Shown: in pieces, positions 4,711-52,403 of the stretch
How positions within the stretch are numbered: position 1 is the first letter of the stretch
How the letters are laid out: the number at the start of each line of letters is the position of its first letter
From: Rhodospirillales bacterium BBD 1991-14
GTDB lineage: Bacteria; Pseudomonadota; Alphaproteobacteria; Kiloniellales; Kiloniellaceae
Direction: 5' to 3'
DNA: 64,000 bases
NCBI GenBank assembly: GCA_001657395.1
Contig: LYSY01000006.1
Span: forward strand, 186,001-250,000
The notes under the pieces: generated by a model
Seen by the model: the letters and a program-made list of their open reading frames with translations, nothing else
Told to the model about the DNA's origin: nothing
The model's database searches: none
Position numbers and translations under genes: made by a program

Positions 4711-4947
4711 GTGTACAGATTTGCGTCAGCGTGGCCGGGGCTCATTCTGGTGGTGGATCGAACAGCAACTCTGAGCCGACGTTCGACGGAACGCAGCTTG
4801 ATGTCTCGACCGAAGCCATCGAACTGGGGGCGGCGGTCAACAATTGGGGCGCGACGCCACCGTCAGTCCGCGCGTAGAACGGGGCTCAGGACGGCAGCCC
4901 GAAAAGTAGGTACTTAGACGCCAATTCACAATCGAGAGTCCAAGAAA
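4711..4947 (+). other. Gap with an unassigned coding remnant
   Basis: No complete gene is visible between the glycosyltransferase stop and the broken acyltransferase. One frame reads through 4738-4876 with a plausible protein-like composition (GGGSNSNSEPTFDG, then LDVSTEAIELGAAVNNWG) and stops at TAG. It has no start codon and I do not recognise a family. It may be the tail of a secreted or repeat protein whose front was deleted, in line with the decayed gene next to it, or chance. Confidence 0.25.
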
Positions 4948-6113
4948 ATACCTAACGTCATACACCCGTCGGTCCCCGTCTATCGTCCCTTTGGTACCTT
5001 CCGCTTCCTGCTCGCGATCGCGGTCGTGGTCAGTCATACGTTCCCGATGACCTTTCCCGACGATCATCTTCTGCGGCAGATCGGAATCGGCAACGTTGCC
5101 GTAATGGGCTTTTTCATCCTGTCCGGCTTCATCATATCGGAAGCAGCGATCACGCGTTCTATTCGGGCAGGCCGATCGCCTTCATGAGCAACCGGCTGGC
5201 GCGCATCGTCCCACCTTATTGGGCCGCACTGTTCGTCTCCGTTTGCATTCACGCGGCGCTCGCGCAGGATGGCCCGGTTAGAACATCGGCGACAGAGACG
5301 ATGCCGTCCGGCGCCCTGGACGCCAGCAGCCTTGTGGAGAACGCTCTCAAGATCTTCGCCCGTCCATCGGAATTGACCATGGCACTGGACCACCCGTTTT
5401 ACGGGTTCGTGCGTTTCTACTGGGCGGTTTACATCGAGTTACTCTTCTACGGCGCGACCTTCCTCGTCGCGGCGCTGACAGTGGTTCCCTTGGTAAAACG
5501 GATGCGCCTCGGTGGGAGCGTCGTCGCCGCGGCGATGGTCTTTGCGACGGCTCTCCACGTCTCAGGGGAGTATGCCGGCCGTGAGATTGTGGCGTTTCCT
5601 GGACGATGGGGCTTCACCTTTGCGCCCTATTTCCTGATCGGCGTCTCGCTCTACTTCTGCTTGACCCTGCGGTCCCGCGCAGCCTTTGCCGGCTTCGCGG
5701 TCTCCTACGCCCTGATGTCGCTGCATTTCAGCCGTTACGTCCAGGGCAAGATTCCGCTCTTCAACGAATGGGCAAGCGGCTTGCTCGAACCGGGCCATGC
5801 GATCCCGATCCTGCTGCTGCTCGCCGTGCCGGCCGTACTATGGCGTCTTGCGCACATCAGGATCGATCGCTTTACGTCAGTTGACTGGCGGCTCGGCAAC
5901 CTCTCCTATCCGATCTACCTCAATCACTGGGTCGTCATCGTCGCGATGTACACCTTGACCGAGGGCACCGGGTTTGCGGTGCAAGCGGTGTCGATCGCCG
6001 CGTCTATTGCGCTGTCGTGGGCTCTCATGCATGCCGTCGAGACGCCGCTGCAGTCCGTGCGCGACAAGCTGAGAGGCCAATCGTTAATGGTAGAAGAGGA
6101 GTCGGCCCGTTAG
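4948..6113 (+). pseudogene. Acyltransferase-3 family gene, frameshifted and lacking a clear start
   Basis: Two frames together encode an acyltransferase-3 (OafA/NodX type) integral membrane protein. The first part, about 4948-5145, reads VYRPFGTFRFLLA and FFILSGFIISEA, the typical first two membrane helices. The second, from about 5145 to TAG 6111-6113, reads HAFYSGRPIAFMSNRLARIV and continues through some eight more helices to the end. The join needs a -1 shift near 5145. The first part is preceded by a stop at 4915-4917 and has no ATG, GTG or TTG before the conserved helix. An ATG at 5184 would give a 309-residue protein lacking the catalytic front. The intact family O-acetylates surface sugars. 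A sequencing error could explain the shift but not the missing start. Confidence 0.72.
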
Positions 6114-49367: not shown

Positions 49368-49664
49368 ATGGACGACAAGACCCGCACCGAACTGGAGGCT
49401 GCGGCCTTCCGCACACTGGTTTCGCACCTGCGCGAGCGCACGGACGTGCAGAACATCGACCTGATGAACCTGGCCGGGTTCTGCCGCAACTGCCTGTCCA
49501 AGTGGTACCGGGCCGCGGCCGAGGACAAGGGGATCGAGATGGACTACGACTCGGCGCGGGAGCTGATCTACGGCATGCCCTACGCCGATTGGAAGGCCAA
49601 GTACCAAACCGAGGCGACGCCGGAGCAGAAGGCCGCCTTCGAGGCCAGCCATAAGCACGGCTGA
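49368..49664 (+). CDS. DUF1244 protein
   Basis: A 98-residue acidic protein (MDDKTRTELEAAAFRTLVSH). NLAGFCRNCLSKWYRAAAED has two cysteines spaced C-x2-C, and GMPYADWKAKYQTEAT follows, which is the DUF1244 signature widespread in alphaproteobacteria. The start follows GGGAGAGAGCAAG. The biochemical role is not established. The C-x2-C pair suggests metal or redox function. It precedes the gapR promoter by a short non-coding gap. Confidence 0.88.
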   Translation: MDDKTRTELEAAAFRTLVSHLRERTDVQNIDLMNLAGFCRNCLSKWYRAAAEDKGIEMDYDSARELIYGMPYADWKAKYQTEATPEQKAAFEASHKHG

Positions 49665-49725
49665 CCGGTCACAAGCGCCGCTGAGCGGTCTCGCCGCTCT
49701 GCGGTGACCTGGGAGCTTTCCCCCG

Positions 49726-49734
49726 TTATCCACA
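49726..49734 (+). promoter_or_regulatory. Perfect DnaA box upstream of gapR
   Basis: TTATCCACA is the exact high-affinity DnaA-binding nonamer. A single copy lies 107 bases before the gapR ATG. No second box or AT-rich unwinding region is seen near, so it is more likely regulatory than an origin. Confidence 0.6.
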
Positions 49735-49840
49735 GCTTTCCCGCGTTGTCAGTCCTCCGGCCGCGGTCTAGTCTCGGCGCCCTTCAGCAGGCCTGAATCA
49801 GCAGTCTGGATCGGGCGCATCTAGAGGAGTTTGTACGTCT

Positions 49841-50089
49841 ATGGCTGATGTCGGCGGCATCGGGGCGGATCGGCTGCGGTCTTTCGTTGAGCGGATCGAG
49901 CGCCTGGAAGAGGAAAAGGCGGCGTTGACCGCGGACATCCGCGAGGTCTATGCCGAGGCGAAGGGCGATGGCTTCGACACCAAGGTGATGCGCCAGGTGG
50001 TCCGCCTGCGCAAGATGGACTCCGGCGACCGCCAGGAACAGGAGGCCATCCTCGACCTCTACAAACAGGCCCTCGGCATGGTGGGTTAG
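49841..50089 (+). CDS. gapR: Nucleoid-associated protein GapR (DUF2312)
   Basis: An 82-residue protein (MADVGGIGADRLRSFVERIE), starting 4 bases after TACG with TAGAGGAG in the leader. The central coiled-coil region RLEEEKAALTADIREVYAEA and the tail TKVMRQVVRLRKMDSGDRQE match DUF2312/GapR. GapR of Caulobacter binds overtwisted AT-rich DNA ahead of forks and polymerases as a tetramer and supports topoisomerase action. The lone DnaA box upstream suggests cell-cycle control. A hairpin terminator follows. Confidence 0.9.
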   Translation: MADVGGIGADRLRSFVERIERLEEEKAALTADIREVYAEAKGDGFDTKVMRQVVRLRKMDSGDRQEQEAILDLYKQALGMVG

Positions 50090-50517: not shown

Positions 50518-50886
50518 ATGCTACGCAGACATCACGACATGGGTGGTTTGGATGCCGGACCGGTCGACCCTTTCGGGCCCGGGGCCGAGCACGACTACGC
50601 GCCCTGGGAGAAAAAGGTCGACGCCATCCTGCGTCTCGTCAGCGACCGGAAGCGCCAGATCATGACGGTGGACGAACTGCGCCGCGGCATTGAGGAATTG
50701 GGGCCCGGCGTCTACGACGAGCTCAGCTACTACGAACGCTGGATCGCTTCGGTCACCAATATCCTCATCGAGAAGGGCGTCATCGAGATCGAGGAGCTTG
50801 GCCGCCGGATGGCCGAGATCACCGACGCCTGGCCCGCCGGCGGCGTGACCGAGGCGGAACCGAAAACCGCCGGCGGTTCGTCATGA
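50518..50886 (+). CDS. Nitrile hydratase/thiocyanate hydrolase-like subunit, N-terminal beta half
   Basis: Called from ATG 50,518 behind GGAGAGCGGG, 122 residues: MLRRHHDMGGLDAGPVDPFG. The HDMGG opening and the helical LRRGIEELGPGVYDELSYYE and RWIASVTNILIEKGVIEIEE match the N-terminal half of the nitrile hydratase beta subunit. In thiocyanate hydrolase (ScnB) and in three-subunit nitrile hydratases this half is a separate protein, as here. A longer frame from 50,446 is not conserved. It overlaps the next gene by four bases. Confidence 0.85.
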   Translation: MLRRHHDMGGLDAGPVDPFGPGAEHDYAPWEKKVDAILRLVSDRKRQIMTVDELRRGIEELGPGVYDELSYYERWIASVTNILIEKGVIEIEELGRRMAEITDAWPAGGVTEAEPKTAGGSS

Positions 50887-51173
50887 CCGCCCGCTTCGAT
50901 ATCGGAGCCCGGGTTGCGGTGTGCGCGGCCTATCCACCCGGCCATGTGCGTACGCCTTTCTTCGTGCGCGGCAAGACCGGCGTGGTGACCGAGATCCTGG
51001 GCCCCTACCGCAATCCGGAGGCGCTGGCCTACGGGCGCAGCGGCGATCCGGCGCTGCCGCTCTACCGCGTTCTGTTCCGGACCGCTGAGCTCTGGGACGG
51101 CTACGACGGCGCTTCGGGCGACACCACCGTGGTGGACATCTACGAGAACTGGCTGAATCCGTCGGAGGCCTGA
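50883..51173 (+). CDS. Nitrile hydratase/thiocyanate hydrolase-like subunit, C-terminal beta half
   Basis: A 96-residue SH3-like protein: FDIGARVAVCAAYPPGHVRT, then PFFVRGKTGVVTEILGPYRN, LYRVLFRTAELWDGYDGAS and VVDIYENWLNP. This is the C-terminal half of the nitrile hydratase beta subunit, which contacts the metal site of the alpha subunit. As a free subunit it corresponds to ScnA of thiocyanate hydrolase. Its ATG overlaps the stop of the upstream gene, and the catalytic subunit starts 4 bases later. Confidence 0.87.
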   Translation: MTARFDIGARVAVCAAYPPGHVRTPFFVRGKTGVVTEILGPYRNPEALAYGRSGDPALPLYRVLFRTAELWDGYDGASGDTTVVDIYENWLNPSEA

Positions 51174-51177
51174 CGTC

Positions 51178-51807
51178 ATGGCGCACGATCACTCGCACCC
51201 CCATCCGCATCAGCCGGACCTGGAGGAGACTCCGCTCACCCACTATCAGGCCATGACCGAGGCGGTGGGCCAGCTCCTCATCGAGAAAGGTGTCATCTCG
51301 GGCGAAGAACTGCGCGCCGTGCTGGAGCAGATCGATTCCAAGAGCCCGGCCGCCGGTGCGCGCATGGTCGCCCGCGCCTGGGTGGATGACGACTTCAAGG
51401 CGCGCATGCTGGCGGACGTCAACAAGGCCGCGGAAGAGATGGGCATCGACGCCGGCACCATTCCCATCCGCGCGGTCGAGAACACCGAGGCTGTGCACAA
51501 CGTCATCGTCTGCACGCTTTGCTCCTGCTATCCGCGCAACCTCATCGGCCTGCCGCCGGATTGGTACAAGGCGCGCAGCTACCGCAGCCGCACGGTCCGC
51601 GAGCCGCGCGCCGTGCTGACCGAGTTCGGCACGAGCATTCCGGAGGCTGTGGAGGTCCGCGTGCACGACTCCACCGCCGACCTGCGCTACATGGTGCTGC
51701 CGGCGCGCCCGGCGGGCAGCGAGGGCCTGGACGAGGCTGCCCTGGCCGACCTCGTCACCCGCGACTGCATGATCGGCGTCACCCTGCCGAAGAACCCGGA
51801 CCCATAG
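51178..51807 (+). CDS. Metal-binding catalytic subunit of nitrile hydratase or thiocyanate hydrolase
   Basis: A 209-residue protein. The claw-setting motif is V-C112-T-L-C115-S-C117-Y, the cobalt type (threonine rather than serine after the first Cys). It continues PR, where most nitrile hydratases have PW, and later has RDCMIGV where nitrile hydratases usually have RDSMIGV. Both points and the His-rich start MAHDHSHPHPH recall thiocyanate hydrolase gamma, while DWYKARSYRSRTVREPRAVL is closer to nitrile hydratase. It hydrates nitriles to amides or thiocyanate to carbonyl sulfide and ammonia. No activator protein gene is seen. Confidence 0.88.
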   Translation: MAHDHSHPHPHQPDLEETPLTHYQAMTEAVGQLLIEKGVISGEELRAVLEQIDSKSPAAGARMVARAWVDDDFKARMLADVNKAAEEMGIDAGTIPIRAVENTEAVHNVIVCTLCSCYPRNLIGLPPDWYKARSYRSRTVREPRAVLTEFGTSIPEAVEVRVHDSTADLRYMVLPARPAGSEGLDEAALADLVTRDCMIGVTLPKNPDP

Positions 51808-51899: not shown

Positions 51900-52403
51900 A
51901 TGATGGAGGTCGCAAGCCGGAGTATCGAGTCCACCGCGCAAGCGCGCGTGAAGGAATGCCTGGTCGAAGCCCATGCCTTCAGAAGGCGTCTGGCGCTGCT
52001 GTCAAGGACCAACTGGATCACCATTGTCGCCCCGGCCCTGCTCTCGGCTTTTGCGGGGGCGGCAATCTTCGAAGCTTCGGAGGCCAATGTCCTGGGTGCA
52101 CAGTGGAAGGTCTGGAGCGGTGGAGCCGCACTCCTCAGCGCCTTGCTGGTGGCGGTGCACAAGGGCCGCAACTGCGACTTCTATCAGGCCGAGAGCCGCC
52201 GCCTGGTGCAGGAGTTCGAAGGGCTTGCGACACGGTACCGTTCCCTTTTGCAGATCGAAGTCGCAGAGCCCCAGCAACGCCTGGAGGAACTTGAACTCAG
52301 ACTGGCGATGGTCCGGGAGACGGCGGCCATCGACTACCCCGCCTCCTACAGAGCCGATGCGGAAAAGTCGGTCGACGCGGCGCTTCAGGCAGCTGCGGCT
52401 TAG
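51900..52403 (+). CDS. Small two-helix membrane protein, SLATT-like
   Basis: The ATG at 51,900 follows GAGGGGAGCCAG and gives 167 residues (MMEVASRSIESTAQARVKEC). Two membrane helices are at about residues 40-60 (WITIVAPALLSAFAGAAIFE) and 70-88 (GGAALLSALLVAVHKG), followed by a coiled-coil C-terminus (ESRRLVQEFEGLATRYRSLL). The arrangement resembles the SLATT family of small effector-like membrane proteins. It could be a pore-type defence protein, but no sensor gene is adjacent, so this is only a resemblance. Confidence 0.65.
   Translation: MMEVASRSIESTAQARVKECLVEAHAFRRRLALLSRTNWITIVAPALLSAFAGAAIFEASEANVLGAQWKVWSGGAALLSALLVAVHKGRNCDFYQAESRRLVQEFEGLATRYRSLLQIEVAEPQQRLEELELRLAMVRETAAIDYPASYRADAEKSVDAALQAAAA

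Follow-up and report, generated by a model that had tools for sequence, protein, structure and literature searches.

The window, a 64,000-nucleotide stretch of contig LYSY01000006.1 from Rhodospirillales bacterium BBD 1991-14, probably encodes a three-chain cobalt nitrile hydratase (NHase) of the ScNHase kind, one that matures itself and belongs to a widespread Arg-pocket branch of the family. We base this reading on the family scores and cobalt motif, a fixed gene layout, the trees, the results of an activator profile (A2), the kept catalytic Arg and Glu residues, and the precedent of ScNHase from Streptomyces canus CGMCC 13662. The genes, their layout, their conserved residues, the separate branch and the finding of no canonical activator are matters of observation. 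The features are as follows.

50518..50886, plus strand: bN, a free-standing N-terminal half of NHase beta (AnhD/ScnB-like), 122 aa, 13.6 kDa; PF21006, 73.4 bits
50677..50694, plus strand: bN Leu54-Arg55-Arg56-Gly-Ile-Glu59; Arg55 and Glu59 are kept in both groups compared below, Arg56 marks the Arg-pocket group, and Leu54 aligns with ScnB Arg90
50883..51173, plus strand: bC, a free-standing C-terminal half of NHase beta (AnhE/ScnA-like), 96 aa, 10.5 kDa; PF02211, 69.7 bits
50943..50951, plus strand: bC His21-Val-Arg23, equivalent to the second of the conserved Arg regions in NHase beta; His21 and Arg23 occur in at least 95% of both groups
51178..51807, plus strand: alpha, the cobalt-binding and predicted catalytic subunit (AnhA/ScnC-like), 209 aa, 22.9 kDa; PF02979, 259.4 bits
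51511..51537, plus strand: cobalt motif of alpha, Cys112-TL-Cys115-S-Cys117-Y-P-Arg120, found in the sequence by motif match; Arg120 replaces the Trp of Trp-type NHases

Thiocyanate hydrolase has the gene order scnB-scnA-scnC, and a preliminary description of this DNA had proposed two overlapping beta genes followed by the catalytic subunit, an order of that type; the open reading frames and Pfam matches bear this out at the same place. bN runs from an ATG at 50518 to a stop at 50884-50886 that shares four bases, ATGA, with the bC start codon at 50883, and a GGAGG at 51164-51168 lies upstream of the alpha ATG at 51178. The three Pfam matches listed above, to NHase_beta_N (bN), NHase_beta_C (bC) and NHase_alpha (alpha), are each far above cut-off. 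Against the NCBIfam models, alpha barely passes the NHase alpha model TIGR01323 (250.3, cut-off 249.85) and falls under the thiocyanate hydrolase gamma model TIGR03887 (203.3, cut-off 291.45), while the two halves of beta reach 67.1 and 64.5 on the whole-beta NHase model, whose cut-off of 152.2 half-length proteins cannot be expected to reach. The alpha subunit is 51.7% identical to that of Pseudomonas putida NHase versus 42.4% to ScnC, and 49 to 52% identical to Trp-type Co-NHases of solved structure (PDB 3qxe, 1v29). A search of the organism's own genome returned a single matching alpha and a single PF21006 (beta-N-type) match, which is bN.

Judged from the sequences, the features of the three genes that carry information are the split beta and the Arg that follows CYP. 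For residue counts and trees, five rows were dropped (four copies and one short row) and the remainder was thinned at 82% identity. Position 120 of alpha is Arg in 85, Lys in 3, Ile in 1 and Trp in 1 of 90 Arg-group representatives, whereas it is Trp in all 40 Trp-type representatives. Many columns separate the groups, among them alpha 163 (His in 78 of 90 versus Trp in 40), bN 56 (Arg in 74 of 86 versus His in 19 and Phe in 9 of 40) and bC 90 (Trp in 86 of 86 versus Tyr in 27 and His in 12). The cobalt motif, bN Arg55, bN Glu59, bC His21 and bC Arg23 are kept in both. The other hallmarks named in the preliminary description, namely VCTLCSCYPR, YRSRTVREPR, RDC and a His-rich N-terminus, are all present in alpha, but two of them lose the diagnostic value they had been given. 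RDC, taken as a mark of thiocyanate hydrolase, is a minority residue pattern in both groups (17 of 91 Arg-group and 1 of 40 Trp-type representatives, with 12 and 1 rows not readable by script), and YRSRTVREPR, taken as a mark of NHase, reflects a Tyr-Arg-x-Arg with a later Pro-Arg that is conserved in NHases and ScnC alike. Natural pocket changes also occur inside the Arg branch: locus L121 (4634-6591) has the bN-bC-alpha order but Trp after CYP, with an enoyl-CoA hydratase gene just before it, and L133 and L136 have Ile at this position.

The split of beta is a fixed property of this group. All eight genomes of the genus that were searched, including the organism's own, carry alpha in the bN-bC-alpha layout. 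Among 185 loci (a count with repeats: three rows for the window, two for G025 and two for one contig), 121 combine bN-bC-alpha with Arg after CYP and one more does so with a second bN; the same order occurs with Lys in three, Ile in two and Trp in one (L121). Six loci read bC-alpha-bN with Arg, two pair an annotated scnC with a fused bN-bC, and five have an Arg alpha with no beta genes on the stretch. A contig end cuts four of these five, and around the fifth, L163, a longer stretch shows that both beta genes are intact and lie about 2.6 kb upstream, in the usual order. The remaining class, 44 of the 185, is of Trp type, with alpha first or a fused beta first and a further beta-N-like gene, the activator, in 41; seven Trp-type loci have alpha, a split beta and an activator. 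Parts of this locus set are biased: L062-L141, retrieved with an Arg-type alignment as the best 80 of 592 matches, favor the Arg type, and L032-L061, which scored highest against PF02979 in the class sample, favor the Trp type.

Motif searches, which are free of any assumption about layout, give a fairer sample. Across 385 genomes of the class, 142 of which have some NHase alpha, CYP-Arg was found in 63, CYP-Trp in 71 and both in 17; the reversed motif pattern gave no match. Of 74 Arg places, 30 were read, and 29 are bN-bC-alpha, the thirtieth being L163; of 77 Trp places, 30 were likewise read, all of them alpha-first and 28 with an activator (2 of the 30 Arg and 12 of the 30 Trp loci overlap the earlier locus sets). 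Variations on the layout were seen. On the stretch L218 (G109:C5:19000-24900), bN, bC and alpha follow one another as usual but alpha stands about 2.6 kb away from bC; L101 (4563-6624, Candidatus Binatota) has a short-chain dehydrogenase-like gene, recognised by eye at 4903-5685, between bN and bC; and a second bN-like stretch lies near the operon in L107 (labelled Devosia equisanguinis) and at G085:C57:88524-88760, the latter match having an internal stop.

Pfam and NCBIfam typing of the surrounding genes agreed with the preliminary description that no activator gene adjoins the three genes, and in the organism's own genome both the PF21006 search and the activator profile matched bN alone (profile score 21.6 bits). 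This profile, A2, was built from 17 activators and targets relatives of known Co-type activators; it detected the activators of G017 and G025, which a Pfam search of 20 genomes had missed. On 22 related genomes, A2 gave 11 matches of 69.8 to 149.3 bits. These adjoin the 11 alphas, spread over 8 genomes, that fall outside the Arg set (assigned to the Trp type by reading in some cases and by layout in the others). In the 14 relatives with the Arg type only, the sole match was each genome's own bN, never above 24.3 bits. In 45 class-sample genomes with the Arg motif only, a status that rests on two motif searches, nothing scored above 34.2 bits (in six of them, scoring stopped at 75 of the 77 to 109 first-look candidates), and in 15 genomes with the Trp motif only a match of at least 88 bits was found in every one, including G237, which had contributed a row to the profile. 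Combined, A2 exceeded 35 bits in 0 of 59 Arg-only genomes (with the same partial scoring, 75 of 77 to 109 candidates, in six) versus at least 69.8 bits in 23 of 23 Trp-type genomes. No canonical activator gene was thus found in these Arg-only genomes.

As a competing explanation, the window enzyme might be an NHase that receives its cobalt not from bN but from a helper encoded elsewhere and so far unrecognised, for example a CobW-type GTPase. Extracts of PMC7193024 and PMC3511329 describe activators as needed in almost all NHase clusters, and for thiocyanate hydrolase too, which favors such a helper, as does the coverage of our search, confined to helpers related to known Co-type activators. 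On the other side are the 0 of 59 result, with its six partly scored genomes, and ScNHase itself, since in the extracted text of PMC7329996 its AnhD subunit is the chaperone and its genome has no activator gene. We consider the hidden helper unlikely, although it is the most serious of the competing explanations.

The closest precedent for self-maturation comes from the extracts of PMC7329996. ScNHase is encoded in the order anhD-anhE-anhA with beta in halves, is assembled as AnhD2E2A2 with 0.84 mol cobalt per mol enzyme, and is active on acetamiprid, thiacloprid and BN with almost no activity on indole-3-acetonitrile. AnhD serves as its cobalt and swapping chaperone: apo-ScNHase mixed with holo-AnhDA regained 54% of full activity, from which that report concludes that AnhD is both chaperone and subunit. 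ScNHase as described there resembles the window enzyme in its bN-bC-alpha order, its three small subunits and a genome free of an activator gene, and differs in the size of AnhD (10.4 kDa versus 13.6 kDa for bN), the likeness being one of description and not of sequence. The first residues of AnhD, MARINDV in a published primer, resemble the Arg group no more than the Trp group when compared by eye. Key ScNHase residues given in the extracts of PMC13243292 are AnhD Glu56 and AnhE His21; compared by number and description, bC His21 shares its number with the latter and bN Glu59 is the probable counterpart of the former. Two observations complicate the assignment to the ScNHase kind. A split beta does not by itself release an enzyme from its activator, as the seven Trp-type split loci have one and the split thiocyanate hydrolase is aided by one (see below), which counts against this reading; and activator-free loading is not peculiar to the ScNHase type, since the extracted text of PMC7329996 points to two other enzymes, a Co-NHase from Aurantimonas and an Fe-NHase from Comamonas, that are able to take up their metal with no activator.

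A plasmid-borne NHase of Microvirga flocculans, described in extracts of PMC11573777, has three subunits with alpha between the two beta genes, unlike the window; the plasmid copy in a congener (L216) has this same arrangement and CYPR like the window, and differs from the window's locus in having a cobalt transporter downstream. ToyJKL, as described in extracts of PMC8574189, is a heterohexamer with subunits of 21.2, 10 and 11.4 kDa, and is likened to the window by its three subunits, again from description and not from sequence; PMC7329996, in an extract citing Nelp 2014, states that the alpha of toyocamycin NHase by itself suffices for activity and forms the active centre. The six NHase gene layouts given in the extracts of PMC7193024 do not include bN-bC-alpha without an activator. 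Trp-type Co-NHases (PDB 3qxe, 1v29) have the cobalt motif CTLCSC and the conserved beta Arg and Glu in common with the window, and differ in their pocket Trp, a beta that is mostly fused, an activator in 41 of 44 loci and a clade of their own. The substrate of ToyJKL is a nucleoside.

By analogy with these systems, the three chains would assemble as (alpha bN bC)2, with Co(III) held by Cys112, Cys115 and Cys117. Two of these Cys residues would be oxidised and clamped by bN Arg55 and bC Arg23, and a nitrile bound to cobalt would be attacked by water or by an oxidised Cys to give the amide. We propose that bN acts as a maturation chaperone: free bN would substitute for an activator by loading cobalt on alpha in an alpha-bN2 complex, from which alpha would then be swapped into the complete enzyme, in the manner of AnhD in ScNHase. 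In the pocket, Arg120 may favor polar or anionic nitriles over bulky hydrophobic ones; an unusual substrate, as the preliminary description suggested, is possible for this enzyme.

Phylogeny sets the window apart from the Trp-type enzymes. Trees were computed from 131, 55 and 75 locus rows with 3, 3 and 2 PDB-chain rows added, Fe-type NHases being left out. Trp-type NHases form one clade in the alpha tree (58 rows, support 100/99), in the three-subunit tree (77 rows, 100/100) and again in a quick tree of 134 alphas (SH-aLRT 99). Forcing the window into this clade costs 44 log-likelihood units with three subunits (AU p 0.023), while with alpha alone the constraint is not quite rejected (AU p 0.0965). 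The earlier proposal of a distinct three-subunit enzyme is therefore upheld as to its separate branch and conserved split; nitrile-hydrating, activator-free cobalt NHases of three subunits already appear in the extracts of PMC7329996 and PMC11573777. Specifically, a split beta without an activator is the kind already described as ScNHase in the extracted text of PMC7329996.

The position of thiocyanate hydrolase in these trees is less settled. In all three trees ScnC lies within the Arg-type rows, and none of the 200 bootstrap trees of either the alpha or the three-subunit run placed the Arg rows without ScnC on one side of a branch. Its branch is long (1.05 in the alpha tree), its attachment shifts from near L019, L020 and L135 in the alpha tree to L143 and L145 in the three-subunit tree, and AU tests of ScnC outside the Arg rows do not reject that alternative (p 0.296 for alpha, 0.079 for three subunits). 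Because the attachment is unstable, our claim is limited to its place among Arg-type rows; given the long branch and the AU tests as well, we regard the nesting of thiocyanate hydrolase among Arg-type enzymes as likely only.

This bears on whether the window enzyme is itself a thiocyanate hydrolase, with Arg120 binding SCN- and carbonyl sulfide and ammonia as the products. Like ScnABC (PDB 2dd4), it has three chains, CYPR and the gene order of scnB-scnA-scnC, and ScnC lies among Arg-type enzymes in the best trees. Two Arg residues, that after CYP and ScnB Arg90, determine thiocyanate selectivity, and crystallographers altered exactly the former in a thiocyanate hydrolase crystal (3vyg_C reads CYPW, 2dd4_C reads CYPR). 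The chain 3vyh_A, from the 1ire_A series, scores 76.4 bits against the window stretch, above 1ire_A at 72.7, and presumably carries the reverse change at this residue, with which its higher score is in line. The second Arg is the point of difference: bN Leu54 stands opposite ScnB Arg90 in two alignments, although the match hangs on one gap and a one-residue shift alters it, so that, given these roles of the two Arg residues, the window would have one of them. Further evidence against a thiocyanate hydrolase is the TIGR03887 score below its cut-off, the lower identity to ScnC than to P. putida NHase, and the long branch of ScnC itself; the best trees put the window elsewhere, although the AU test on alpha does not reject the window and ScnC grouped together (p 0.265). 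ScnABC also has an activator, P15K, which according to the title of a reference listed in PMC3511329 aids the split-chain thiocyanate hydrolase. We have set thiocyanate hydrolase proper aside on the TIGR03887 score, the ScnB Arg90 position and the branch, the AU tests not being decisive, and rate it as very improbable. Least credible, to the point of being negligible, is the idea that sequencing error or a recent mutation cut the beta gene of an ordinary NHase in two, for while each half does match an NHase beta model, the split is shared by all eight genus genomes and the 121 Arg loci, which rules out such an error, and bC Trp90, found in 86 of 86 Arg-group rows versus Tyr or His in the Trp type, and the separate branch speak against it as well.

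The neighbors of the three genes were typed alongside them. DUF1244 and GapR-like genes lie upstream (49368-50089), and downstream of alpha are a weak SLATT match (51900-52403; 27.7 bits where the cut-off is 55) and, on the opposite strand, a GNAT gene. None of these typed neighbors is an evident partner, and no amidase was found among them or among 20 typed proteins near related loci; the genes therefore have no pathway context. In a comparison of 83 loci, with one protein typed per cluster, the recurrent neighbors in Roseobacter-type loci were DUF1223 (25 loci), aconitase (24), lipid A acyltransferase (21), FliG-like (17) and EamA (15) genes. In L068-L114 it is common for bN, bC and alpha to have a FliG-like gene on one side and, on the other, DUF1223, aconitase and lipid A acyltransferase or EamA genes. 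Neighbors outside the Roseobacter-type loci are unrelated to these, and no common partner gene was found across lineages, so that gene neighbors were abandoned as a substrate clue. If one may guess, a broad task, for example the removal of small nitriles or of cyanide, would suit the housekeeping setting in Roseobacter-type genomes. Other settings were recorded individually. On plasmid p1 of Planktothrix agardhii (L142, 232-6579), the Arg-type genes directly follow asparagine synthase, GST, NADAR, TauD dioxygenase and methyltransferase genes, a setting reminiscent of a cluster for a natural product whose synthesis involves a nitrile or an amide. Cobalt transporter genes (NixA or CbtAB) adjoin L143, L144, L145 and L216, a set made up of loci with the bC-alpha-bN order and one locus on a Streptomyces plasmid; aquaporin and DUF302 genes are further neighbors of some of them.

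The Arg-pocket branch is much wider than the described three-subunit cases, and in the NHase literature surveyed, seen in extracts, we found no account of Arg-pocket, activator-free enzymes as one branch. More tentatively, and with considerable doubt, the Arg-pocket three-gene enzymes could be a separate functional family that is old, widespread and activator-free, with its own small polar or anionic substrate and often placed among housekeeping genes. Thiocyanate hydrolase would then have arisen from them, free bN would be a built-in activator, and the activators of Trp-type NHases would derive from such a bN.

Co-type NHases are industrial catalysts; that they need an activator is inconvenient in practice and poses an open question about how the cobalt site is assembled. 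With its motif in 63 of 385 class genomes and none of the 59 Arg-only genomes searched yielding a canonical activator, the Arg branch offers many natural tests of the self-maturation model drawn from ScNHase. The Arg-for-Trp difference in its pocket is the same switch that parts Trp-type NHases from thiocyanate hydrolase.
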